Virus record (IMG/VR): IMGVR_UViG_3300030382_001660
Coordinates: 7,380 to 34,335 of that record
Direction: 5' to 3' (one strand)
Length of the DNA: 26,956 nucleotides
Origin: a virus
Shown here: piece after piece, positions 5,946-26,956 of the stretch
How positions within the stretch are numbered: the first letter of the stretch is position 1
How the letters are laid out: every line of letters starts with the position of its first letter
Program-made: the position numbers and the translations under genes
The notes under the pieces: model-generated
Told to the model about the DNA's origin: nothing
Databases searched by the model: none
The model's input: the letters and a program-made list of their open reading frames with translations, nothing else

Positions 5946-7448
5946 ATGGCAATTACTGCAGGTAGTAATTTGAACAGTGTTCCGGCTTCAGCGAAGCAAA
6001 CACTAAACTCAAATTACATCGATTTTGCGACAGCGGGGTCTTCGGACGGCTGGGCGCAACAATATTTACCAGACCTAATGGAGAAAGAAGCAGAGGTATT
6101 TGGTCCTAGGACTATATCTGGATTTCTTTCACAAGTTGGAGCTGAAGAATCTATGATGTCTGACCAAGTTGTTTGGTCTGAGCAATCAAGATTACACTTA
6201 TCATACGTCGCAACAGTAGACGCAGATGGTGACACAAACGGTACGTTTGCAATTACTGCTGATATCGATGGAGATACAACAGTAGGTAGTACAACAAGTA
6301 GAACTCACGGCGTTAGAGTTAATGACATGGTATTAATAGCACAAGCTGGTTCTGTAGAAAAAGCATTGGTTGTTGAAACTCCAGATTCAAATGTTGTTTC
6401 ATTTGAACCTTATAATACAGCTGCTTCAGCTTTATCTGATGGTACAGCAACTGTATTAGTTATTGGTTCTGAGTATGGTAAAGGGATGTCTTATTCAGAC
6501 GAAACTGGTACATACAAAACTGAATCAAGAGGTGCTAACACTCCAACGTTCAAATCATTCACTAACAAACCAATTATAATGAAAGATTACTATGAGATCT
6601 CTGGATCTGATACTGCTCAAATTGGTTGGGTTGAAGTTACAAGTGAAGCAGGTGGAAGTGGCTATTTATGGTACTTAAAAGCTGAAGGTGAAACTAGAGC
6701 ACGTTTTACTGATCATTTAGAGATGGCTTTATTGGAAGCTCAGAAAACACTTGCTGTATCGGCAATTGGTTTCGGTGCTGATGGTCAAACTAGAGGCGCT
6801 GCTGATGCTGGTTTAAATGGTGCTGGTACTGAAGGTTTATTTGCGGCTATCGAAGATAGAGGTAATTTAACCTCTGGTGTTACTGGTGTTAATTCAGCAA
6901 CTGATTTAGCTGAATTCGACGCTATCTTAGCAGAATTTGATAACCAAGGTGCTATTGAAGAAAACATGATGTTTGTTAACAGGGCTACTTCGTTAGCTGT
7001 TGATGATATGTTAGCTTCAATGAATTCTTATGGGGCTGGTGGTACTTCTTACGGAGTATTCAACAACTCAGAAGATATGGCGCTTAATTTAGGTTTCTCT
7101 GGTTTCAGACGTGGATCTTACGATTTCTACAAATCTGATATGAGATACTTAAATGATAAAGCTACAAGAGGTGGTATTAATGATAGAGCAACTACCGCGG
7201 CTATCCGTGGAGTTATAGTACCAGCTGGTACGTCTACAGTTTATGACCAAGCTTTAGGAAAAAATCTTAAACGACCATTTTTACATGTACGTTATAGAGC
7301 TTCTCAAACTGACGACAGACGAATGAAATCATGGATTACTGGTTCGGTTGGTGCTGCTACATCTGCTTTAGATGCAATGCAGATACACATGCTGTCTGAA
7401 AGATGTTTAGTTACACAAGGTGCTAACAATTTCATGTTAATGAAATAA
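5946..7448 (+). CDS. Major capsid protein (probable HK97 fold)
   Basis: Main shell protein of the head. The 500-aa length, position after the scaffold-like gene and before a strong terminator, and sequence character fit capsid proteins of crAss-like and marine Bacteroidota podophages. An N-terminal arm (1-75) contains WAQQYLPDLMEKEAEVFG. A beta-rich, Gly/Asp/Thr-rich section at about 85-165 may be an inserted domain. Then follow the motif KPIIMKDYYEISG, a long helix with EAQKTLAVSAIGFGADGQTR, and a C-terminal half with LHVRYRASQTDDRRMKSWI. The gene looks less A/T-rich than its neighbours, as expected of the most highly expressed virion gene. I cannot verify the fold from sequence alone. The start ATG at 5946 is preceded by ACAAAATT, without a Shine-Dalgarno sequence. 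Confidence 0.87.
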   Translation: MAITAGSNLNSVPASAKQTLNSNYIDFATAGSSDGWAQQYLPDLMEKEAEVFGPRTISGFLSQVGAEESMMSDQVVWSEQSRLHLSYVATVDADGDTNGTFAITADIDGDTTVGSTTSRTHGVRVNDMVLIAQAGSVEKALVVETPDSNVVSFEPYNTAASALSDGTATVLVIGSEYGKGMSYSDETGTYKTESRGANTPTFKSFTNKPIIMKDYYEISGSDTAQIGWVEVTSEAGGSGYLWYLKAEGETRARFTDHLEMALLEAQKTLAVSAIGFGADGQTRGAADAGLNGAGTEGLFAAIEDRGNLTSGVTGVNSATDLAEFDAILAEFDNQGAIEENMMFVNRATSLAVDDMLASMNSYGAGGTSYGVFNNSEDMALNLGFSGFRRGSYDFYKSDMRYLNDKATRGGINDRATTAAIRGVIVPAGTSTVYDQALGKNLKRPFLHVRYRASQTDDRRMKSWITGSVGAATSALDAMQIHMLSERCLVTQGANNFMLMK

Positions 7449-10642: not shown

Positions 10643-13600
10643 ATGCCAGAGATTAAGCATACTTTTACCGGTGGTAAAATGAATAAGGATCTCGATGAGA
10701 GACTTATTCTAAATGGAGAATATAGAGATGCAATGAATATACAAGTGTCAACCTCAGAAGGTTCTGATGTTGGTGCTGTTCAAAATATATTAGGTAACTC
10801 TTTAGTTTTTAGTGGACCACTTGATGGTGAAACTATGATTCCTCCTGGTTCTCACTGTATTGGATCTGTTGCTGATGAAAAGAACGATGCGTTATATTGG
10901 CTTATTACACAAGAAAATCAATTTAGTTATACAGATTTTACTGATGGAGTTTTCCAAAGTAAAGACATGATATTACAATATAAGAACGGTAACGTCGTAC
11001 CTGTTCTTGTTGATTTATCAAACACATATATTTTAATGCCAGGGGGAGGAAATCCTATTACTGGTGATATACCAATATCTACACTAACTGGATGGAACGC
11101 GATATCTGTAGGAGATACAGTTAGTAGTTTTGTTGACGTATTTACCGGAAATTTAATTGAGCAAGAATCTTTTATAGTATTAAGTAAAAATTCTGGAAAT
11201 CAAACAATTAATATTGGTGATTATACTAATGCTTCTTCAAGTTTCGTTAACGCTCAACAAGGAGAAATTTATTTTAGATTAAATGAAGTTAATAGCACTT
11301 TAAATTTTTCAATAAAACCTAATTTAACTGAAACTTACGGAGAACCACAACTGATAACTGGCATAAATATTATTGATGACATGTTATTTTGGACAGATAA
11401 TTATTCTGAACCAAAAAAAATAAATATTCCTCGTTGTATTGAAGGCACTCACCCACTCGGTCATCAACACACTCTATTTATAAACGAAGATAGAGGCATT
11501 ACCACTACACAAAATCCTACCCAAATAAGAGAAGAACACATAACTGTTATTAAAAAAGCACCTTTATTAGCTCCAGTTATTTCAATGTTAGCTGCTAGAC
11601 CTGGTAATACGTTTGGAGCAATTGGAGATGGTGTTGGTGGAGCAGCTATTAACATTCCAATTTTTGCAGGACTTACTACTGGTGATCCTGTAATTTTACA
11701 AATAGAATCCGTAAACAGTGCAGGTTTAAACTATAATGTTGATGATGTTTTAATTTTAAAGGAAGGAAATGATCAATCTAGTGATTTTCCTCTTGACGCT
11801 ACAGCACCAGATGTTAGAGTTGTTATAAAGACAATAGATAATACGACGTACATAAGTAATAATGGTAAAACTATATATTATTGCGAATGTGAATTGTTAA
11901 GCGTTCGTAGCGATTTAAGTGTTAGTGCTAATATTTTTGGTGTAGATTTAGATACGTCCTACGAAAAACTATACGAGTTAAAGTTTCCTAGATTCTCAAC
12001 CAGATTTAAATATATTGATGGAGAATATTCTTCATTTGGACCTTTTTCTGAAATTGCTTTTATACCTGGAACTTATGATTATTTTCCTAATAAAGGATAC
12101 AACTTAGGAATGGAAAACAATTTAAGAGAATTAACGTTAAGAAGAATAGTACCAAGAAATATACCTGATGGTGTTGTGCAAATAGATATTTTATATAAAG
12201 AATCTAATTCTCCAAGTGTATATACAGTTGATAGTATTAAGCAAACCGATCCATGGGGTGGGCGAGGCGGTAATTATTGGACGTTTAACGAGTATAAAAT
12301 AACTAAAGATATTATACATGCAGTTCTTCCAGAAAACCAGTTATTAAGACTTTGGGATAATGTACCTAGAAGAGCATTAGCTCAAGATATTATTGGTAAT
12401 AGAATTGTTTATGGTAATTATTTACAAGGTTTTAATTTATTAAGCGAAAGTTATGCAAAAATAAAATCTTCTTTTAAGGTTTTTTTAGAAACTAGATTAG
12501 ATAAAACAACATATAAGTCTATTAAATCTATTAGGAATTATCAAATGGGGATTGTTTACTTAGATGAATACAACAGACAAACACCAATATTAACAGATTC
12601 TAGTGGTACTTTAGCGGTTAGTAAATTAGATGGTAGTAAAACAAATCAAATAGTAGTAGAACCCAAAAATGATCCTCCAATTTGGGCTAAATATCATAAA
12701 TTTTATGTTAAAGAAACTTCTAATGAATATTATAACTTATCTTTAGATAGATATTTTGATGCTAAAGATGGGAATATATGGCTTTCTTTTCCTTCTAATG
12801 ATAGAGATAAAATAGATTTAGAAACATCCTTATACTTAAAAAAGAAATATAATTCAGATGTTCAAGAAACAACTTTAAACAAGTATAAAGTTATAGATAT
12901 AAAAAATGAAGCTCCAGAGTATATACAAACTAGGAGAGTTACTATAGGTACGATTAGTAATGACGATAAGGGATTTACTGTTGGGACACCTGGTAATCCT
13001 GGAGTGTTTTTTTATAATCCAAGCGTTGCAAGTGGAAATACTTACGCAACCGATCGTTGGCCAATTGAAGGAGAAGATAAAATAAGATTTCACGCGACAG
13101 CGTTAACAGATAGTATATTAGAAAACTTCCACATAAAGCACACGAGTTTTTATGGTAATATGTCTCCAAAAAATCCATTATATGTTAAATTTGTTGCTGA
13201 AAACAGTGATGGAGATTTAACGGGTGATTCTACTAATTGGTATGAAGTAGACGAAGTCAATAGAAAAGGGCATTCCCTCATCACAGGGGTTTATAGAATT
13301 AAATTAAAAAACAAAATTGGAAGTCTGCCTCCACCATTTGATGGAGACGCAGATTGGCTAAATAACGGTACTGCTGCTGCACCAGAACTTAGTACCGCCG
13401 CCAGTAATGGAGATGTTGTTGTACACATAGCACAAGATATCGTACAGAATAAAGCTGTTTTCCAAGGAAGATTTTTTGTAAAAATAGAAAGAGATTCTTA
13501 TATTGAAGAGGCTATTGTGAACCAAGGGGCTTTTCAAAATATTCAAACTATTGTAAAAGCAGATTGTTATTACCTTAAAGATTTTACAGAAGAAGATTTA

Positions 13601-16600
13601 TCAAGCGGTGCAATAACATCCCTTGATAATCAAAAAAATAATGCCACAATGACTTCAGGTGTTCATAGTGGTATGATTAATAGTTTTAATAATCAAGGAG
13701 CAATTATTAATAGTACTGGTACGTGGAGTATGTCTAATTTACTAAATCCTAGTACTAGTAATCCATCGCAACTTCCAGATGGAAAACCTATACCAACAGA
13801 CGCTTATTGGAGTAGAGAAATTTGGTATGAAATATATGAAAGATTAAAAAATACTCCAACTGAATCAAGATGGTTTATAGATGAAGCTTTTGCGACTGGT
13901 GAAGAACCACTTTGGGGTGCGCATGGAAAACAAAGATCACAAGAATTTCTTGGAGCACCCCATGACAATGTTGTTACAAGTTATAATCAAGGTTTAAAAT
14001 CATCTACTTTGTATGGGGGATATAGTTCAGATAGTTCTCATGTCCACACGTTAGATCATAATTCAATTAGTGGTCTCACTAGTATAGATGTTCAAGGTTT
14101 AGGTCATGGATCTACTACGCGGGATTATGAATATTTTACTCAAGGAAAAGCAGTTACGGATTATACTATAGATATATCGTATCTTGGACCAGGAGATTCT
14201 CCAAATTCAGATTATAAAACTCTTTCATTGTGGTATCCTGCCCCAAGTCCACTTGGTGTACCTGACTATGAAGATTACTGGTCAATTATGCGGACTTTTG
14301 ATCCTGTTGGTAGAAAATTTGCCGATCATTTAGTAGAGGGTAATCAATTAAGATTTACAAATGATCCAGAAGAAGTAGTTTGGAAGATAAAAAATGTTGA
14401 AAAGTTTTATAAGTTAAATTATGCTGAAGCTGAAGAAGACTTTTTTTATCCAAACGCCGAAACTATTAATGTTGTAACTGGATGTCTTAGTGCTATGGGT
14501 TTTGGACATCCTCAATTAGCCGAATGTGTTTCAAATGGTTACGAATATTGGAATAATGCTCCTTGGAATCGTAGGATAACATATAGACTAACTTTACAAG
14601 CTCCAAATGCTGGTAACGTAATAGGATTTAACGGTTACACACCTTTAGCTAGTGGTAATATAGGTGCTACTAGTTGGGACGCTCCTACCGCACCAGGAGT
14701 TTCAAATGAAAATCCTTGTGGAATAGAAATAGTTACAACTAATTACGTAACTGATTCTGATATTCCTTTTCCTGAAAACCCTGCTGTTTTTGAAACAGAA
14801 CCAAAAGAAAATGTAGATTTAGAAATATATCATGAAGCCAGTGATAATATACCGATAACATTGAGTGGTAACGGTTATGAGTTTGCGCCTATTGGTAGTA
14901 AAGTTACAGTTCCCTCAGCAAGCAGTACAATAGGAGCGCCTGCTGTTGTTGTTGGATGGGATGGTAATGTTGTTGAATTATCAAATCCAGTTAATGATTG
15001 TACTGTCAATCAAGGTGATTTATTTTATTTTGAAAAACACGACGGCACCTTTACTTCAGCTGAATTTGATGGTTTAGTAAATCCTATATCTGGACCATGT
15101 GATTCTTCATTGTTTGTTAGATTTAGCGATAATATTCACAATGTTAAAGTAGGATTAGGGTGGCATAACTGCTATTCTTTTGGTAACGGTGTAGAATCAA
15201 ATAGAATAAGAGATACTTTTAACTCACCTATTATAGACAAAGGTCCTAGAGTTTCTTCTATATTAGAAAAAACGTATACCGAAGATCGTAGAAAGTATGG
15301 TTTAATATATTCCGGATTGTATAATAGTACTAGTGATACGAATAACTTAAACCAGTTCATACAAGCTGAAAAAATAACAAAAGATATAAACCCAATACAC
15401 GGCAGTATACAAAAATTACATACAAGAGATACTGATTTAGTTACTCTTTGTGAAGATAAGGTTTTAAGAATTTTAGCAAATAAGGATGCGGTATATAACG
15501 CAGATGGAAATCCACAATTGGTAGCAACACAAAACGTACTAGGACAAACTGTTCCATTTGTTGGTGAGTTTGGTATATCTAAAAATCCAGAATCATTTGC
15601 TTCTGAATCATACAGATCTTATTTTACAGATAAGCAAAGAGGTGCTGTAATGAGATTATCGAAAGACGGTTTAACACCTATATCTAATCACGGTATGAAA
15701 GATTGGTTTAGAGATAATTTAAAACTAAGTAATCAACTTATTGGTAGCTATGATGATAGAAATGATGAATATAATATAACACTTAAAGATATTGCTAAAA
15801 CAGTTTCGTTTAAAGAAGATGTTAGAGGTTGGGTAAGTTTCAAATCATTTATACCTGAAAATGCTATTAGCTGTGCTAATGAGTACTTTACTATATTAGA
15901 TGGTCAACTGTATAAACATTATATTGAAATATTAAATCCTACTACTGGAGAAGACACGAACAGAAATACTTTTTATAGAGAAGTTGATCCTCCTTTACCA
16001 AACGATGGTTTTACCGCATCTAGTGTAAATGTTATATTAAATGAATCTCCTGGAAGTGTAAAATCTTTTCATACGTTAGATTATGAAGGTAGTCAATCAC
16101 AAATTATTCCTATGACATTCTATGATACTGGCAACCAGTTCATATTAGAAGATCAATATTATAACTTGACAGCAAAAGATGGTTGGTATGTTGAAAGCGC
16201 TATTACAGATTTAGAAAATGGAAGTTTAAATGAGTTTATAGAAAAAGAAGGGAAGTGGTTTAATTATTTCCATGGAAAATCTATAACTACTGATGTTAAT
16301 GGATTTGTAGAATCGAACTATGATACAGATAGTTTTGCAGTCCAAGGTATTGGTTATCCAGATGGAGTGGTTCAAATTAGTGGTTGCACAGATCCTACTA
16401 TGTTTAATTATGATCCAAATGCTATTATAGATGACGGTAGTTGTGTACCTATTATTTCTGGTTGTAACGATCCGCTAGCAATGAACTATAATCCATTAGT
16501 AAATACTCCTTTAATTTCAGATTGTGAATACTGTGTATACGGTTGTATGGACCCAGCAGCAACAAACTATAATCCTCTTGCCACTTGCTATGACCCATCA

Positions 16601-17668
16601 GACCCGTGTTGTTTAGTCCTTGGTTGTACAGATCCTAATGCTTGTAATTATAATCCGTTAGCTGATTGTGATGATGGAAGCTGTTATGGAATATTAGGAT
16701 GTATAGATCCTTTAGCATCTAATTACAACCCACTTGCTACTTGTGATTGTGATGGTACTATTGGTGGAACTGAGTATATCTGTTGCGATTACGGAATTCC
16801 TACTCCACCAGCTACTGGATTTGCAATTTCAGGATGTATGGATAATACTACTATTAATGGTGCTGGACTAGGTATTAATGGAGCGCTTAATTATAATTCT
16901 AATGCTACTGCTGATTGTGCAGGTGTAGTAGGAGGAACAGATTATAGTTGTTGTAAATATTGTGTGTATGGTTGTACGGATCCATTAGCAACAAACTATA
17001 ATCCATTAGCTACTTGTGATGATGGAAGTTGTACGTATATAACTACATATCCTTCTTGTAGTTTAGTTAGTAATGCTGATTTTTCTAGCGCTATATTATC
17101 AAATACTTCTGGAGAAGATTTAGGTTCAGCTATGTTTAATTCACTTCCCGTAACAACTGGTTGGAAATCACATAATTTCTATGATGACCCAAGTAATAGC
17201 GCTGGTAATTCTATACCTCCGTATATAGATGCGGGCGATAGTTTAATTCTAGAAGGATCAAGTGCAAGTATCTTGAGTAACGCTGAGCAAGTTGGTATTT
17301 ATCAAAGAATGCCGGCAACTTTAACCTCAGCAAACGCGTACAGATTAATTATAGAAATAGAATCAGTTACATTAGGGGCTAGTTCGGGTACAGCTTATGA
17401 ACCTACATTATATTTAGGTAATAATAGTGCTTCTAATTCTGGAGCATTGGGATTTTTGTTTACTAGCAATTCTATTAATTGGTACGATTTATTTGGACAG
17501 TATGGTCGACAACACATACCACTGGCAGTTGGAACATATACAATCCAATTTGCCCCTATCGGTAATGCGCCTTATGATACAGAAGCTTTATCTATAATGC
17601 TTAATACTTATGACAATTCACAAGTAAAAATAGGTTATGTCTGTTTAGAAATCGGTTCACCAATTTAA
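10643..17668 (+). CDS. Giant tail nozzle ('muzzle'-like) protein with repeat-rich, lectin-like C-terminus
   Basis: A 2341-aa protein, probably the distal short-tail tube assembly with host-contact appendages. The opening (FTGGKMNKDLDERLI, then NIQVSTSEGSDVGAVQNILG) and the region at about 1575-1700 (GSIQKLHTRDTDLV, VLRILANKDAVYNADGN, FGISKNPESFA, DKQRGAVMRLSKDGLTPIS) are ones I associate with the muzzle-type nozzle protein of crAss-like phages. The central part is beta-rich and variable. Residues 1914-2130 hold seven Cys-rich repeats. Residues about 2139-2341 form a Ser/Thr/Gly-rich beta-sandwich-like end that resembles a carbohydrate-binding domain in composition (W, Y and G rich strands, YLGNN). 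The ATG at 10643 is three bases after a TAG codon in the same frame. The nozzle role is inferred from remembered likeness and position. Confidence 0.7.
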   Translation: MPEIKHTFTGGKMNKDLDERLILNGEYRDAMNIQVSTSEGSDVGAVQNILGNSLVFSGPLDGETMIPPGSHCIGSVADEKNDALYWLITQENQFSYTDFTDGVFQSKDMILQYKNGNVVPVLVDLSNTYILMPGGGNPITGDIPISTLTGWNAISVGDTVSSFVDVFTGNLIEQESFIVLSKNSGNQTINIGDYTNASSSFVNAQQGEIYFRLNEVNSTLNFSIKPNLTETYGEPQLITGINIIDDMLFWTDNYSEPKKINIPRCIEGTHPLGHQHTLFINEDRGITTTQNPTQIREEHITVIKKAPLLAPVISMLAARPGNTFGAIGDGVGGAAINIPIFAGLTTGDPVILQIESVNSAGLNYNVDDVLILKEGNDQSSDFPLDATAPDVRVVIKTIDNTTYISNNGKTIYYCECELLSVRSDLSVSANIFGVDLDTSYEKLYELKFPRFSTRFKYIDGEYSSFGPFSEIAFIPGTYDYFPNKGYNLGMENNLRELTLRRIVPRNIPDGVVQIDILYKESNSPSVYTVDSIKQTDPWGGRGGNYWTFNEYKITKDIIHAVLPENQLLRLWDNVPRRALAQDIIGNRIVYGNYLQGFNLLSESYAKIKSSFKVFLETRLDKTTYKSIKSIRNYQMGIVYLDEYNRQTPILTDSSGTLAVSKLDGSKTNQIVVEPKNDPPIWAKYHKFYVKETSNEYYNLSLDRYFDAKDGNIWLSFPSNDRDKIDLETSLYLKKKYNSDVQETTLNKYKVIDIKNEAPEYIQTRRVTIGTISNDDKGFTVGTPGNPGVFFYNPSVASGNTYATDRWPIEGEDKIRFHATALTDSILENFHIKHTSFYGNMSPKNPLYVKFVAENSDGDLTGDSTNWYEVDEVNRKGHSLITGVYRIKLKNKIGSLPPPFDGDADWLNNGTAAAPELSTAASNGDVVVHIAQDIVQNKAVFQGRFFVKIERDSYIEEAIVNQGAFQNIQTIVKADCYYLKDFTEEDLSSGAITSLDNQKNNATMTSGVHSGMINSFNNQGAIINSTGTWSMSNLLNPSTSNPSQLPDGKPIPTDAYWSREIWYEIYERLKNTPTESRWFIDEAFATGEEPLWGAHGKQRSQEFLGAPHDNVVTSYNQGLKSSTLYGGYSSDSSHVHTLDHNSISGLTSIDVQGLGHGSTTRDYEYFTQGKAVTDYTIDISYLGPGDSPNSDYKTLSLWYPAPSPLGVPDYEDYWSIMRTFDPVGRKFADHLVEGNQLRFTNDPEEVVWKIKNVEKFYKLNYAEAEEDFFYPNAETINVVTGCLSAMGFGHPQLAECVSNGYEYWNNAPWNRRITYRLTLQAPNAGNVIGFNGYTPLASGNIGATSWDAPTAPGVSNENPCGIEIVTTNYVTDSDIPFPENPAVFETEPKENVDLEIYHEASDNIPITLSGNGYEFAPIGSKVTVPSASSTIGAPAVVVGWDGNVVELSNPVNDCTVNQGDLFYFEKHDGTFTSAEFDGLVNPISGPCDSSLFVRFSDNIHNVKVGLGWHNCYSFGNGVESNRIRDTFNSPIIDKGPRVSSILEKTYTEDRRKYGLIYSGLYNSTSDTNNLNQFIQAEKITKDINPIHGSIQKLHTRDTDLVTLCEDKVLRILANKDAVYNADGNPQLVATQNVLGQTVPFVGEFGISKNPESFASESYRSYFTDKQRGAVMRLSKDGLTPISNHGMKDWFRDNLKLSNQLIGSYDDRNDEYNITLKDIAKTVSFKEDVRGWVSFKSFIPENAISCANEYFTILDGQLYKHYIEILNPTTGEDTNRNTFYREVDPPLPNDGFTASSVNVILNESPGSVKSFHTLDYEGSQSQIIPMTFYDTGNQFILEDQYYNLTAKDGWYVESAITDLENGSLNEFIEKEGKWFNYFHGKSITTDVNGFVESNYDTDSFAVQGIGYPDGVVQISGCTDPTMFNYDPNAIIDDGSCVPIISGCNDPLAMNYNPLVNTPLISDCEYCVYGCMDPAATNYNPLATCYDPSDPCCLVLGCTDPNACNYNPLADCDDGSCYGILGCIDPLASNYNPLATCDCDGTIGGTEYICCDYGIPTPPATGFAISGCMDNTTINGAGLGINGALNYNSNATADCAGVVGGTDYSCCKYCVYGCTDPLATNYNPLATCDDGSCTYITTYPSCSLVSNADFSSAILSNTSGEDLGSAMFNSLPVTTGWKSHNFYDDPSNSAGNSIPPYIDAGDSLILEGSSASILSNAEQVGIYQRMPATLTSANAYRLIIEIESVTLGASSGTAYEPTLYLGNNSASNSGALGFLFTSNSINWYDLFGQYGRQHIPLAVGTYTIQFAPIGNAPYDTEALSIMLNTYDNSQVKIGYVCLEIGSPI
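16382..17032 (+). repeat. Seven Cys-rich GC-D-P / NYNP / DDGSC protein repeats
   Basis: Within residues 1914-2130 the motif GC-x-D recurs seven times: GCTDPTMFNYDP, GCNDPLAMNYNP, GCMDPAATNYNP, GCTDPNACNYNP, GCIDPLASNYNP, GCMDNTTINGAG and GCTDPLATNYNP. Each is about 23 to 46 residues and most end in a cysteine-containing acidic close such as CDDGSC. Copies 5 and 6 carry longer spacers with paired CC. The cysteines suggest disulfides formed outside the cell, or metal binding. This repeat style is known from surface or secreted proteins of marine Flavobacteriia. Confidence 0.85.
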
Positions 17669-21336: not shown

Positions 21337-22908
21337 ATGGGAGCAGATAGTACAATAGTAAACGCGGCTTTTAAAGAAGCTTTATCAAAAGCAGGGGCAG
21401 CTGTCCCTGATATGTCAGGTGTAATTAAAGGGCAAGTTGAAGTAAACAAAACATACTTAGGAGGCATAGCAAATGTATTTGCTGATATGAAAAAGAATCG
21501 AGAAGAGATAGAAGCGGCACAAAACATACAATTACAAGCGTTTAAAGATCAAGCTAGGAAAGCTACAAGTCATATCTTAGAACACGAGTTGTCTCAACCT
21601 ATGAAAGTGCATGACGCTATATATGACAAATTCAAAGCGCTAGAAGAAGAATTTAAGTTATATAATACCACCGGAGATGATGATAACGAAAGTAATGAAA
21701 AGATGCGAGCGCACTTATATGCTCAGTTAGGTATGATAAGTAATCAAGCGGTTAAATCTAGAGGTACTATAGCAGAAAAAGGCGCTATGGCTGACGATAT
21801 AGTTGCTTCTGGATCAGCACAAGATTTAGCAGTGGGTAGAGCTATAATGGGTGTTGATGGTAATTATGAAAATATAGAATTAAGTTTTGATGAAAAAGGA
21901 CAATTGGTATACCACGTTTTATTAGACGGTATGGACAAACCTGTTAGTTGGACTATTGATGAATTTAATGAAAAAATTGTAATACATAATAAAGCAAATG
22001 ATGTATTTGAACAAACCGTTGCGAATACGTTTTTTAAAGCTGGACAAGATGGTGAAACATTCACTGACGAAAGTCTAGTCATAGTAAAAGATAATTATAT
22101 TAACGAAATTATAAAAAATAATAGGGATTTTACAGATGCAGCATTTTCAAAGTCACTTGGTAGAAAATCTTGGGTAAACTCTTTATATGACCTCAACGAA
22201 GACACTATTAATATAGCTACCAAAGCTATTGAATATTTGTTTACAGAGGATATGATGGATAAAATTGCATTAGTTGATGTAGATAATTTAGGTGGTATTA
22301 CGATGCTTGATGTAGATACAGACGAGAGTGGTACTATTACTAAAGATGATATGGAAAATTTATCCCCTGAAGCACAAGCTCATTGGCAAGCAAATATCGA
22401 ATCTATAATTGGGGCTTTAACAAAGACAGATCATCCAGCGTTTAATTTACAACGTTCTTCTGAGATGGTAGGACAGTATTACATGGACGGATTAGATAAA
22501 GAATATCAGAGAGGACTTAATAACCGGCCAATTGACAAAAATAATCTTAGTGAGACTGCAAAAGAGAATATATCTAAAAGGGATAGAATAAATACTTTAG
22601 TAGCGGAACTAAAAGATGATGCCAGTGATTTGGAAACAATAACACTTGAGGGCGGGGTTTATGTTGAGCAAGAAGGTAATCAAATTCATTTTAGAAAACG
22701 AAACACTACCGCTACAGCAGATGCTATCACCACTTTAAAAACTGTTCACATAAAAGATAAAAAGGGTTTAACAACATGGTTATGGCATTACGGTAATGTA
22801 GCAGATCAATATAGAAGAGGTCCTGAATATGATATATTCACTGATCCTCTTGGTGATTATCAACAAGGTGAAATGGTGCCTTTCGGTGGAGAACAAAAAT
22901 CAAGATAA
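21337..22908 (+). CDS. Probable internal virion protein with a single EF-hand-like loop
   Basis: I do not recognise a family for this 523-aa protein. It is mainly helical: an Ala-rich start (VNAAFKEALSKAGAAVPDMSG), a Lys/Glu/Gln-rich helix at about 45-80, and a mixed part around 170-230. A calcium-loop-like stretch at residues 327-338 (DTDESGTITKDD) has acids at 1, 3 and 12, S at 5, G at 6 and I at 8. The C-terminal part is Lys/Glu/Asp-rich with a beta-like segment (TITLEGGVYVEQEGNQIHF, near 430). There are no membrane segments and no cysteine. It lies 18 bases after the ejection-type gene and six bases before the giant open frame, which suggests a shared virion cargo set. The role is inferred from context only. 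Confidence 0.62.
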   Translation: MGADSTIVNAAFKEALSKAGAAVPDMSGVIKGQVEVNKTYLGGIANVFADMKKNREEIEAAQNIQLQAFKDQARKATSHILEHELSQPMKVHDAIYDKFKALEEEFKLYNTTGDDDNESNEKMRAHLYAQLGMISNQAVKSRGTIAEKGAMADDIVASGSAQDLAVGRAIMGVDGNYENIELSFDEKGQLVYHVLLDGMDKPVSWTIDEFNEKIVIHNKANDVFEQTVANTFFKAGQDGETFTDESLVIVKDNYINEIIKNNRDFTDAAFSKSLGRKSWVNSLYDLNEDTINIATKAIEYLFTEDMMDKIALVDVDNLGGITMLDVDTDESGTITKDDMENLSPEAQAHWQANIESIIGALTKTDHPAFNLQRSSEMVGQYYMDGLDKEYQRGLNNRPIDKNNLSETAKENISKRDRINTLVAELKDDASDLETITLEGGVYVEQEGNQIHFRKRNTTATADAITTLKTVHIKDKKGLTTWLWHYGNVADQYRRGPEYDIFTDPLGDYQQGEMVPFGGEQKSR

Positions 22909-22914
22909 AGCTAA

Positions 22915-25900
22915 ATGGAAGATTTAGATTTAATATTACAACAGTATGTAGCTACAGCTAACAACCCAGAATACAATCTAGATTGGGATGTTATCAATAG
23001 TAAGTTTCCTGAACTAGCGGAATACGATCCTATTGCTCTACAAGAATATGTAGCCACTGCTAATAATCCAGAGTATAATAAAAATTGGGATACTATTAAT
23101 CGTAAATTTCCAGAGTTTAGAAAAGATTTAATTTATATAAAACCTGAAAATTCTCAACAAGCAATAGAAAGTGTTAAGAATATTAGAGACGGCATAGATA
23201 GAAATGATTCAGATGTAATAAATGCTATAGCGGAAGATTATTTTAATCTTGACAATATACCTGTAAAAACAAGAACAGAATGGGGAGTTCATACTTCACG
23301 TCAAGTAGAAGTAGCTCCTACAGATGAAGATATAAAAGGATATTTTGAAAGTGTTGATGGGACTGGTAAAAAAACTGGAGATTTTACTAAATTCGAACAA
23401 TATAAGGAATATCAAGAGACTGGCGTATTTAATTTAGATTGGGTTGACGAATCTACTATATCTAATGCTGTTAAGAATCGTCAAAGACAAAAACAAGAAC
23501 AATACATATCAAATATAGATAACGATGAAGTTAGACAGTCTGCTGAAATAGCAGTTGAAGAAGAGGTGTTTGATATTTTTGAACCAGACGAAGATCATTT
23601 ACTTTACAGGTATACTAAAGCTTTAGAAGAAGATAGAAAGTTACAAAAACAATATGACGATGACGTCACTAAATTTGGACTACACAATCAATATGTTAAA
23701 AAAGAAAACAGTAAGGCCGATAAATTTTTAACTGATTATTTTACTAAAAAGCAAAAAGGATTAGAGAGAGATAGTTTTAATTTTGGTATTGATGTTGAAA
23801 AGTTTGAAGGTATAAAAAACAAATATGAAAAACAACTTACCGAGATTGAAGAACAAGCTAAAGCTCTTGGAAAAGTAACCGAACGTTCTTCACCGGAAGA
23901 TATTGCTAATTGGAATGAATTAGTTAACAAACAGAATGCGATCATTAATAAGTTTAACCAAGAAACATCGGGGTTAAACATAGAAGAAAGACAAGCGGAA
24001 TTATTAGATAGATATAATAAATTTACAGCAGCAATAGATAAAGTGAGTGAATCAAATGAAATAGCTAAGTCATTTGCTTTAAACTACAATATAGGCGAAA
24101 GACTTAGATTGCACATGGAAAAAGCCGTTATCGGTGATATGGTTGGTCTTGGTTTTGGGGCGCTTAAATTCGTAGCGGATATTTCAGAGGGTATAGTAGA
24201 AACTTTTACAGGTAGACAAGCTAATTCAGCGGTAACAGATTACTTTCAAAATACGTATGCAGCACACATAAACTATAAAGAAAGTTTAGATAAGCACATG
24301 CAGACAACTCTCCCAGAGCAAATTCCTTGGAAAGATGTTAGTATGGATAATATAGGTGAGGTTTCTGCGCAGTTATTTGCAGATAATAGCTTTAGTATTT
24401 TATCAGCATTAACGTATGGTGGTGCTGTTGCTAGGGTATCTAAAATCGGCGCTACTGCCGCTGGATACACTGTACCACAAGCGTCAAGAATGTTGATGCA
24501 AACTTTCTTCGCTGTAGAAGGTGGTGCTAAACTTAGTCAAATGGAAATTGCACAAAAGAACGCTGCAGAAAATATAGCTATATTAGAGAATGCCCTTCTT
24601 TCAGCCCCAACACAAGATGAGCGTTTACAAATATTAGAGTTAATTAGTGAGCAAGATAAAGCTCTAAATGTAACTCAAGTACAAAAAGCATTTTCAACTG
24701 TTTTATACGGTGGTATAGCTGCTTACGCGGAACGTTTAGGTACGATGGGTTATGTTAGACGTTTAAACACTATGATGAAAGCGGCATCTAGACCATCAAT
24801 GAAAAATGCTTTAAAAGGAGCCACGGCATTTGGTTTTAATTCTGGAATAGAATATGTTGAGGAATTTGTAACACAAGTGGGTCATAATTTAACAGATGTG
24901 GCAATATTAGACCAAAATAAATCTTTATTATCCGGTATCGATGCTAAGTTCAATATGAACGTTCTGTTTTCTACAATGGCTATTCAAGCTCCTTCTACCA
25001 GTGTTAATATATATAACTCTGTAAAAAATGAAATTTCAGCTAGAAAAGATATTGCTGAGGATAGGAAAAATAGAGATGAGTTAATTGACATACTACACAC
25101 GTTAAGACAGGACGAGAAGTTCGGTGGATTAGAAGCTGGAATGAAGACGTATCTTGAAAATAGAAGAGATGAGTTGTTAGCCGGCGCTGGAGTTAGAGAC
25201 TCATATCTATTTGCTAACGCTGCTCAGTTAACAAATGAAGAGGTGTTTGCTTTATTTGAAGCACAAGCTAAAAAGAGGGATAAGTTAACTGAAATGAGAG
25301 ACTTAGGCGCTACTGCAGCTGGAGAAATGAAAGAAAGTGAAAGAGCTAGAAGAGCGAGAAAAATACTTACTGGTGATATAAATCAACTTGATAATGAAAT
25401 AGACGAGTTATTAAGAAAACCTGAAGAAAGAAATCAAAAAACAGTTGAAGAAGTATTAGGTAAAGAAAACGTTGAAGCGCAAACCGCGTTTTATTTTGGT
25501 AAATACAAAGCCGCCGAACAGATTGCTAGAGGACTAGGTGATGTACAAACATTTAAAAATGACATTGTTGATGGTGAGGTAGTAGAAGGTAGTGGTATAG
25601 CTAAATTAGAAACTTTCTTAAATAAACAACTGAAAAATAAAAAGATAGATTTAGAAGAAAAAAATATTATACTAGAAGGTTTTAAAAAAGGTAATTTCGC
25701 TGCACACGTGGGTACTAATACCGTTATATTAATGGAAGATAACATTATTAGAGGTATAAATAGCGCCCTAAGTGATTTAGCGAGATCGGTAGTTGCTTAC
25801 GCGCCATTCCATGAACTTCAGCACGCTAATGATATCGCTACTGGTCTTGTTAAAGATGGTGATGTTATTGAAACTCAAAAAGCTATTGTCGCAGGAATAC

Positions 25901-26956
25901 AAGATCATATAGAAAATTTACATAAAAGAGGTAAAATCAAAGACGCCGACTATAACCTTATAAAAAGAAGAATAGATCAGTATACTAAAAATAATGGTGG
26001 TAACGTTAATTTAAAAGAACTATTAACTATAGCTGGTGAACTAAAAGACGCTGGTATATTAAGTCAAGAATCTAGAGATCCACTATTATCAATGAAAATT
26101 TTACTGAATAAGTTTATCAGAAGAAATTTTGGAGATCGTGAAATGTTCTTCAAATTAAAAGATACAGAGCAGGTACTACAATATATAGATAGTTTCCAAC
26201 GTGGAGCTAGAGCATCTAGATTAATGTTAGGGCCAGAAGAAGAAACTAAGAAAGTTAATTTCTCTGAAATATACCAAGAAGTTGACGCTATGTACAACGA
26301 AGAAGCTTGGGCTGATCCTAAAAAGAAAAGTGATTTAGCTTTACAAATGGCATACACGTTAATACCAGAAGTTATTAGACGTATGCAAAACGTTAAGTTA
26401 GACAAATACGTAAAAGAAGATCTTGCAATAAACTTCGCCACACATGACCAAAGGGGTTTGTTTGGATTAATTAAGAAGTATAACAAAGAAGAATATCCAG
26501 ACATAAGTGTGATGGAATATTTAAATAGCTTTATTACTACTCCAAAGGGTAAATTTAAATTACTTGATTTGAGGCTTATGGAGTTTTATCAAAACGATCC
26601 TAAATATGGTAATTTAATACAGTCAATGGAACAAGAGGGTGTAGGTGCTCAAGTTGCAAAATTAACTGATGAAACAAATTTAGAGAACGCTTTAAAAGAT
26701 GATACTAAAAAACCTAAAGTAAATATTCTTAAAGTAGGTAAAGTTGCTGGTAAAGAACAAGCTATTATAAAAGCTGTAAATGAAAAAGGTGATTTTAGAA
26801 AAGTTATTGATAACAATGTTGGTACAGTAGGTAATATAATATTTGATATTCCAGGAAATAAGATAGCGGATCCTACAGCAAACATAACAACATCTGATAA
26901 AATTATAGATCCTAAAACAGGTAAACCAGTAAAAAAGGGAGAAAGAGGTATTCTAG
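22915..26956 (+). CDS. Giant internal virion/polyvalent-type protein, open at the window end, with HExxH motif
   Basis: ATG at 22915 opens a frame that shows no stop for 1347 codons and leaves the window, so the C-terminus is missing. Residues 8-34 and 42-68 are tandem repeats with YVATANNPEYN, a W-D-x-I-N and a KFPE ending. Residues about 70-400 are charged and helical. Hydrophobic or Gly/Ala-rich segments lie at about 405-425, 494-520 and 597-615, as in membrane-active internal virion proteins. Residues 966-970 are HELQH in a YAPFHELQHANDI context, a possible zinc-protease helix. A later helical region (about 1180-1240) has FGLIKKYNKEEYPDI then YLNSFITTP, a type I recall from giant phage polyproteins. 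No RNA-polymerase DxDGD motif was seen. Size, place and segments suggest an ejected multi-domain protein; the enzyme activity is untested. Confidence 0.8.
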   Translation, partial: MEDLDLILQQYVATANNPEYNLDWDVINSKFPELAEYDPIALQEYVATANNPEYNKNWDTINRKFPEFRKDLIYIKPENSQQAIESVKNIRDGIDRNDSDVINAIAEDYFNLDNIPVKTRTEWGVHTSRQVEVAPTDEDIKGYFESVDGTGKKTGDFTKFEQYKEYQETGVFNLDWVDESTISNAVKNRQRQKQEQYISNIDNDEVRQSAEIAVEEEVFDIFEPDEDHLLYRYTKALEEDRKLQKQYDDDVTKFGLHNQYVKKENSKADKFLTDYFTKKQKGLERDSFNFGIDVEKFEGIKNKYEKQLTEIEEQAKALGKVTERSSPEDIANWNELVNKQNAIINKFNQETSGLNIEERQAELLDRYNKFTAAIDKVSESNEIAKSFALNYNIGERLRLHMEKAVIGDMVGLGFGALKFVADISEGIVETFTGRQANSAVTDYFQNTYAAHINYKESLDKHMQTTLPEQIPWKDVSMDNIGEVSAQLFADNSFSILSALTYGGAVARVSKIGATAAGYTVPQASRMLMQTFFAVEGGAKLSQMEIAQKNAAENIAILENALLSAPTQDERLQILELISEQDKALNVTQVQKAFSTVLYGGIAAYAERLGTMGYVRRLNTMMKAASRPSMKNALKGATAFGFNSGIEYVEEFVTQVGHNLTDVAILDQNKSLLSGIDAKFNMNVLFSTMAIQAPSTSVNIYNSVKNEISARKDIAEDRKNRDELIDILHTLRQDEKFGGLEAGMKTYLENRRDELLAGAGVRDSYLFANAAQLTNEEVFALFEAQAKKRDKLTEMRDLGATAAGEMKESERARRARKILTGDINQLDNEIDELLRKPEERNQKTVEEVLGKENVEAQTAFYFGKYKAAEQIARGLGDVQTFKNDIVDGEVVEGSGIAKLETFLNKQLKNKKIDLEEKNIILEGFKKGNFAAHVGTNTVILMEDNIIRGINSALSDLARSVVAYAPFHELQHANDIATGLVKDGDVIETQKAIVAGIQDHIENLHKRGKIKDADYNLIKRRIDQYTKNNGGNVNLKELLTIAGELKDAGILSQESRDPLLSMKILLNKFIRRNFGDREMFFKLKDTEQVLQYIDSFQRGARASRLMLGPEEETKKVNFSEIYQEVDAMYNEEAWADPKKKSDLALQMAYTLIPEVIRRMQNVKLDKYVKEDLAINFATHDQRGLFGLIKKYNKEEYPDISVMEYLNSFITTPKGKFKLLDLRLMEFYQNDPKYGNLIQSMEQEGVGAQVAKLTDETNLENALKDDTKKPKVNILKVGKVAGKEQAIIKAVNEKGDFRKVIDNNVGTVGNIIFDIPGNKIADPTANITTSDKIIDPKTGKPVKKGERGIL
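22936..23118 (+). repeat. Tandem 34-residue repeat at the N-terminus of the giant protein
   Basis: The unit LQQYVATANNPEYNLDWD (residues 8-25) continues to a KFPEL end. It recurs with a 34-residue period as LQEYVATANNPEYNKNWD (42-59) and a KFPEF end. In the 27-residue core 21 positions are identical. The DNA differs at many third positions, so the repeat is conserved at protein level. Confidence 0.92.
25810..25824 (+). other. HExxH motif (putative zincin site) in the giant protein
   Basis: The codons CAT GAA CTT CAG CAC encode residues 966-970, HELQH. A hydrophobic stretch (ARSVVAYAPF) precedes them and ANDIATGLV follows. In zincin proteases two His bind zinc and the Glu is catalytic. No downstream third ligand in a GxxH/D or Glu-helix pattern is obvious, and a Pro two residues before the first His is unusual for the motif helix. 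Confidence 0.5.

Follow-up and report, generated by a model that had tools for sequence, protein, structure and literature searches.

We analyzed a stretch of viral DNA of 26,956 nucleotides (IMG/VR virus record IMGVR_UViG_3300030382_001660, positions 7,380 to 34,335; hereafter the window), focusing on the giant open frame at its right edge (22915-26956; all features described here lie on the plus strand and are numbered from the first base of the window). The HELQH motif of this frame is almost certainly the active site of a genuine zincin-type zinc metallopeptidase domain, as judged from its predicted catalytic site and fold. As a whole, the frame probably encodes the first part of a giant virion cargo ('polyvalent') protein with several domains, this zincin among them. 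The frame starts with an ATG at position 22915 and stays open for 1347 codons to the window edge, where it is truncated by the end of the source contig (34,335 bases, the last of which is also the last base of the window). This agrees with a first-pass annotation, made from the letters of the window alone, which had described a single continuous run-off frame.

Active site and predicted fold

The motif lies where it had been annotated, at residues 966-970 (25810-25824), with H966 and H970 as two predicted zinc ligands and E967 as the predicted general base. Contigs with relatives were retrieved by a search with the C-terminus of a 3045-aa relative (128 contigs matched, and the best 80 of the 128 were fetched), and together with loci from earlier scans they provided a comparison set of 80 distinct proteins of more than 2000 amino acids (aa), referred to as full-length relatives. 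Exactly one HExxH was present in 78 of these 80 proteins, against a mean of 0.68 and a maximum of 4 in composition shuffles, and the remaining two carry HDxxH at the aligned place. The zincin region was aligned for 78 sequences with a median pairwise identity of about 20%, and the only invariant columns were H966, E967, H970, and E1035 (window numbering). The same four columns were invariant in zincin subclass 2 alone (60 sequences, with that of the window excluded). Over the first ~2000 residues of 17 full-length relatives, including the two with HDxxH, the invariant positions were the two histidines and the glutamate equivalent to E1035. The HDxxH carriers (L047, in the region of residue 1030, and L106, in the region of residue 868) retain the glutamate of the third ligand.

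E1035 (26017-26019), located near the start of the glutamate helix, is the predicted third zinc ligand, and its spacing from the first histidine ranges from 50 to 91 residues across relatives. Its invariance removes the earlier reservation that the site lacked a clear third ligand. Other candidates for this role (H998, H1003, E986, and E1129/E1130) were discarded because they are not invariant.

AlphaFold2 predictions based on family alignments reached an overall predicted local distance difference test score (pLDDT) of 84.8 for the window domain, mostly above 90 over the zincin itself (residues 866-1099; 25510-26211), and of 88.2 for a subclass 2 relative. Both models share the order helix, strand, helix, strand, strand, HExxH helix, further helices, and glutamate helix, which is that of the zincin core as described by Iyer et al. 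(PMC5512222), and in both three strands precede the HExxH helix. In the window model, HELQH is found within helix 128-141 and E1035 within helix 198-210. The predicted structure is a zincin topology with a glutamate helix for the third ligand and not a plain helical bundle, which, together with the conservation of H966, E967, and H970 in homologs, bears out the description of the motif as metalloprotease-like. The alternative raised at that time, namely that HExxH arose by chance within a structural protein of helical type, is contradicted by the motif counts given above, by the conservation of the H, E, H, and E residues in distant homologs, and by the predicted structure. Nothing in its favor emerged, and we regard it as vanishingly improbable.

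When compared with the PDB, the subclass 2 model matched mostly zincin folds, with lethal factor and PPEP first. Its first 37 rows comprised lethal-factor-type toxin chains, PPEP/Zmp1, IrrE, YbeY-like proteins, MATCAP, and one HExxH oxygenase, and Certhrax, LTA4 hydrolase, and aminopeptidases are also among the best matches. The lethal-factor-type rows (best Z 6.8) correspond partly to the catalytic domain and partly to the related inactive N-terminal domain. For the window model, the rows covering the domain were lethal factor and Certhrax, at Z of about 5, while rows over model residues 286-360 were disregarded as low-confidence helices. No significant match for the model was found in a viral structure library. 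The top-ranked solved folds are those of MEROPS family M34 (anthrax lethal factor and PPEP-1/2/3), which likewise have HExxH and Glu, but at Z of only 5-7. No PDB chain of that family was matched by profile search at E <= 10, and M34 peptidases are secreted bacterial proteins, unlike virion cargo.

Some observations weigh against the zincin assignment. The fold Z-scores are modest, and the Foldseek E-values alone are non-significant. Library profiles (Pfam and PHROGs) did not recognize the domain and returned nothing usable for the window protein. In two of the 80 relatives the general-base glutamate is replaced by aspartate, and the related protein of the Cellulophaga phages phi18:3, phi38:1, and phi46:3 contains no HExxH, which implies that protease activity is dispensable for that virion design. 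The case for a zincin is carried by the consistency of the fold list and the four invariant residues rather than by individual scores. We also considered that the fold and its metal serve stability only, or that the motif supports other HExxH chemistry. This motif also occurs in alpha-ketoglutarate-dependent oxygenases, an overlap noted for phage N4 (PMC12633501). One such structure was recovered at Z 3.4, and the two HDxxH proteins would suit a non-peptidase as well. However, peptidases outrank the oxygenase (Z 6.8 versus 3.4) and the general-base glutamate is retained in 78/80 relatives, making a function other than that of a peptidase very unlikely.

Virion anchor and full-length relatives

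The zincin is preceded by an anchor domain (residues 396-833; 24100-25413) whose relatives include virion structural proteins from Cellulophaga phages. A direct hidden Markov model search from the window anchor to these virion proteins gave no match, but one-to-one profile comparison with hhalign matched it to the last gene of their virion block (probability 97.4, E 1.1e-11). The subclass 2 anchor matched the same Cellulophaga domain with a probability of 98.2, and BLAST gave further links between the family and these proteins. The compared set includes phi18:3 gp123, whose annotation as a virion protein comes from tandem mass spectrometry (MS/MS). In phi18:3, phi38:1, and phi46:3 the gene with the related anchor occupies the same position as the giant frame. 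In the window, the genes are ordered as terminase, portal, virion proteins, muzzle-like protein, further open reading frames (ORFs) including a tail-fiber-like one, and the giant frame. The preceding ORF (523 aa; 21337-22908) stands at the end of the virion gene block, and the gene at the same position is structural in phi38:1 and, by MS/MS, in phi18:3, where it lies one small ORF away. Gene order and anchor homology to virion proteins, one of them known from MS/MS, lend indirect support to the earlier proposal of an ejected phage protein. From these sequence relationships, we consider it highly likely that the giant protein is packaged in the virion and ejected with the DNA.

Proteins at this position in other phages show further features. 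The Flavobacterium phage elemo encodes gp18 with HEIFH, and the comparison run did not match this protein to the family by sequence. A phage from Manatee Spring (MW202828) has two HEFGH motifs at residues 1615 and 2500 of a 3859-aa protein, whose annotation as 'reticulocyte binding/rhoptry protein' looks spurious. In phi46:3 gp120 (L113:6055-10374), a GNAT acetyltransferase-like stretch was seen by eye in the variable middle, which suggests that other enzymes may fill the slot. Some relatives match the profile phrog_32588 with their N-terminal part, but this profile does not correspond to the protein of phi38:1.

Two N-terminal repeats are visible in the translation, as previously annotated: residues 4-33 (22924-23013), a repeat kept in L002, and residues 40-67 (23032-23115). 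Hydrophobic segments had been listed along with them, but only one 19-residue stretch (405-423) exceeds a Kyte-Doolittle mean of 1.3.

A full-length relative on a viral contig (3045 aa, 65% identical to the window frame) continues beyond the window part with a HAD phosphatase containing an inserted P-loop kinase, followed by a long conserved C-terminus. The insertion point lies behind HAD motif I, and the kinase is zeta-toxin/polynucleotide-kinase-like (Pfam AAA_33 2.5e-10, Zeta_toxin 7e-10). HAD motifs I, II, and IV were complete by pattern in 70 of the 80 full-length relatives, and of the 18 segments tested with Pfam, all 18 matched DUF2608 and 7 matched HAD. A kinase P-loop 35 residues past HAD motif I was present in 6/80 relatives (L002, where the insert spans residues 1979-2330, and likewise L053, L058, L065, L066, and L110), and the other relatives have HAD without the insert. 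The relatives therefore hold several unrelated enzymatic domains per chain (zincin, HAD, and zeta-like kinase), of which the window holds the zincin part only. The complete protein would consist of N-terminal repeats, anchor, zincin (with H966, E967, H970, and E1035), a variable middle, HAD, and a helical-looking C-terminus, with the parts beyond the contig end taken from relatives, some of which have the kinase inserted in HAD. Searches of named phages with the family C-terminus found no relative, no cultured phage with this protein was found, and searches of bacterial genomes by zincin or C-terminus found none either.

Exchange of the anchor and zincin block and possible substrates

Contigs L023 and L089 are 93-94% identical over the upstream genes, over the first 206 bases of the giant gene, and over the last 5.6 kb, whereas the ~3 kb containing anchor and zincin (L023:7508-10780 and L089:4268-7193) cannot be aligned and the zincin subclasses differ. 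Of 14 pairs with at least 80% identity in both flanks, only 6 share the zincin. Zincin similarity correlated best with that of the anchor (rho 0.37), weakly with the C-terminus (0.20), and hardly with the middle (0.07), although highly divergent sequences had to be aligned, which makes these values indicative only. The pairs L088/L098 and L079/L099 have anchor and zincin in common and differ in the middle. Assembly chimerism may affect single contigs, yet the pattern recurs in several independent pairs. These comparisons indicate that related phages swap the whole anchor and zincin block within the gene while the active site stays unchanged.

Under our favored explanation, cleavage of some protein by the zincin would take place during entry or shortly thereafter. 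Since anchor and zincin are replaced jointly and both the remainder of the chain and the neighboring genes are left unchanged, the substrate would be expected outside the constant part, and the exchange pattern speaks against a substrate in the constant C-terminal half. Plausible substrates, if not quite probable ones, are host proteins of the envelope, membrane, or cytosol, and cleavage inside the anchor-zincin module is less likely. The near-universal presence of the zincin points to a regular step of infection rather than to occasional counter-defense. More tentatively, the protease could be an exchangeable 'warhead' beside a membrane/anchor part, swapped in-gene, with nothing but the catalytic residues retained, to match changing host targets.

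Zincin-like metallopeptidase (MPTase) domains of phage polyvalent proteins, predicted in 2017, were suggested either to cleave the chain that carries them or to act on targets (PMC5512222). On the first of these options, the zincin would mature the polyprotein by cutting it in the head or after ejection, freeing HAD, kinase, and other domains. The near-universal zincin suits such an obligatory step, and DdrB of phage P1 is processed prior to packaging. However, the anchor and zincin block can be replaced by that of another subclass while the remainder stays 94% identical, so that fixed sites in the constant part would need to suit very different proteases. Moreover, zincin similarity does not track the middle and only weakly tracks the C-terminus, and the N4 virion RNA polymerase, which has such a domain, is packaged uncut. 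We therefore consider maturation of the polyprotein unlikely, though not markedly so, and favor a host or envelope protein, cut at the entry stage, as the substrate rather than the constant part of the chain. As a special case of cleavage of a host protein, the zincin could help to open the envelope if it cleaved a protein of the outer membrane or periplasm, or one linked to the wall, close to the ejection channel. The zincin adjoins the anchor and is co-inherited with it (as in the correlation and in the two pairs with different middles), and cargo proteins of crAss001 and N4 are thought to form membrane channels. On the other hand, the surroundings of the zincin showed no wall-binding domain and the cultured relatives manage without a zincin, and this more specific role appears rather improbable.

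Known systems and genomic context

By the features tested, the window domain would be a zincin that works like a polyvalent-protein MPTase. As in the MPTases of Iyer et al. (PMC5512222), an HExxH helix is followed by a glutamate helix, the sheet is three-stranded, and the domain belongs to a giant multidomain protein encoded among virion genes. An Asp three residues past HExxH is shared with one clade described by these authors. Unlike those MPTases, the zincin holds a fixed position behind a virion anchor, is near-universal in its family, and is exchanged as a block with the anchor. Neither Cellulophaga phages nor polynucleotide kinases are mentioned in the main text of that study. Relative to the known polyvalent MPTases, the present analysis adds a large family of uncultured phages, a predicted third ligand, the connection with a virion anchor, and the block exchange. 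The N4 virion RNA polymerase (PMC12633501) resembles the window family in being a giant virion protein with an HExxH domain (C1) and a large helical C-terminal part, and it is ejected. It differs in domain order, and in the window family HAD and kinase are found instead of a polymerase: Pfam and PHROGs named no T7-type RNA polymerase in the window protein or its relatives, with no dedicated search having been made.

Among the other genes of the window are the terminase large subunit (50-2272; PHROG 6681, E 8.1e-171) and a muzzle-like structural protein of 2341 aa (10643-17668; Pfam crAss_MUZ, E 4.6e-14; PHROG virion structural protein, E 3.9e-129). The phi38:1 relative of the latter has 1324 aa, and the Pfam match covers only part of the window protein. 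The nearest named terminases were those of a 60-kb podovirus from Manatee Spring (63%) and of Flavobacterium, Cellulophaga, Tenacibaculum, and Maribacter phages. From these relatives, the host is likely a member of Bacteroidota. As for Crassvirales markers, the muzzle Pfam match is present, the terminase is nearest to the podovirus and flavobacterial phages, and phi38:1 is filed under Pervagoviridae. A Synechococcus phage match at E 6e-3 falls in a gene annotated as recombinase. No RNA families or tRNAs were found in the window.

Predictions of proteases in ejected phage proteins date back to 2017. With constant catalytic residues in a module that is swapped around them, the family described here amounts to a natural experiment. 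Since near-identical phage pairs differ mainly in the anchor-protease block, the effect of this block on host range or particle processing would be directly testable.
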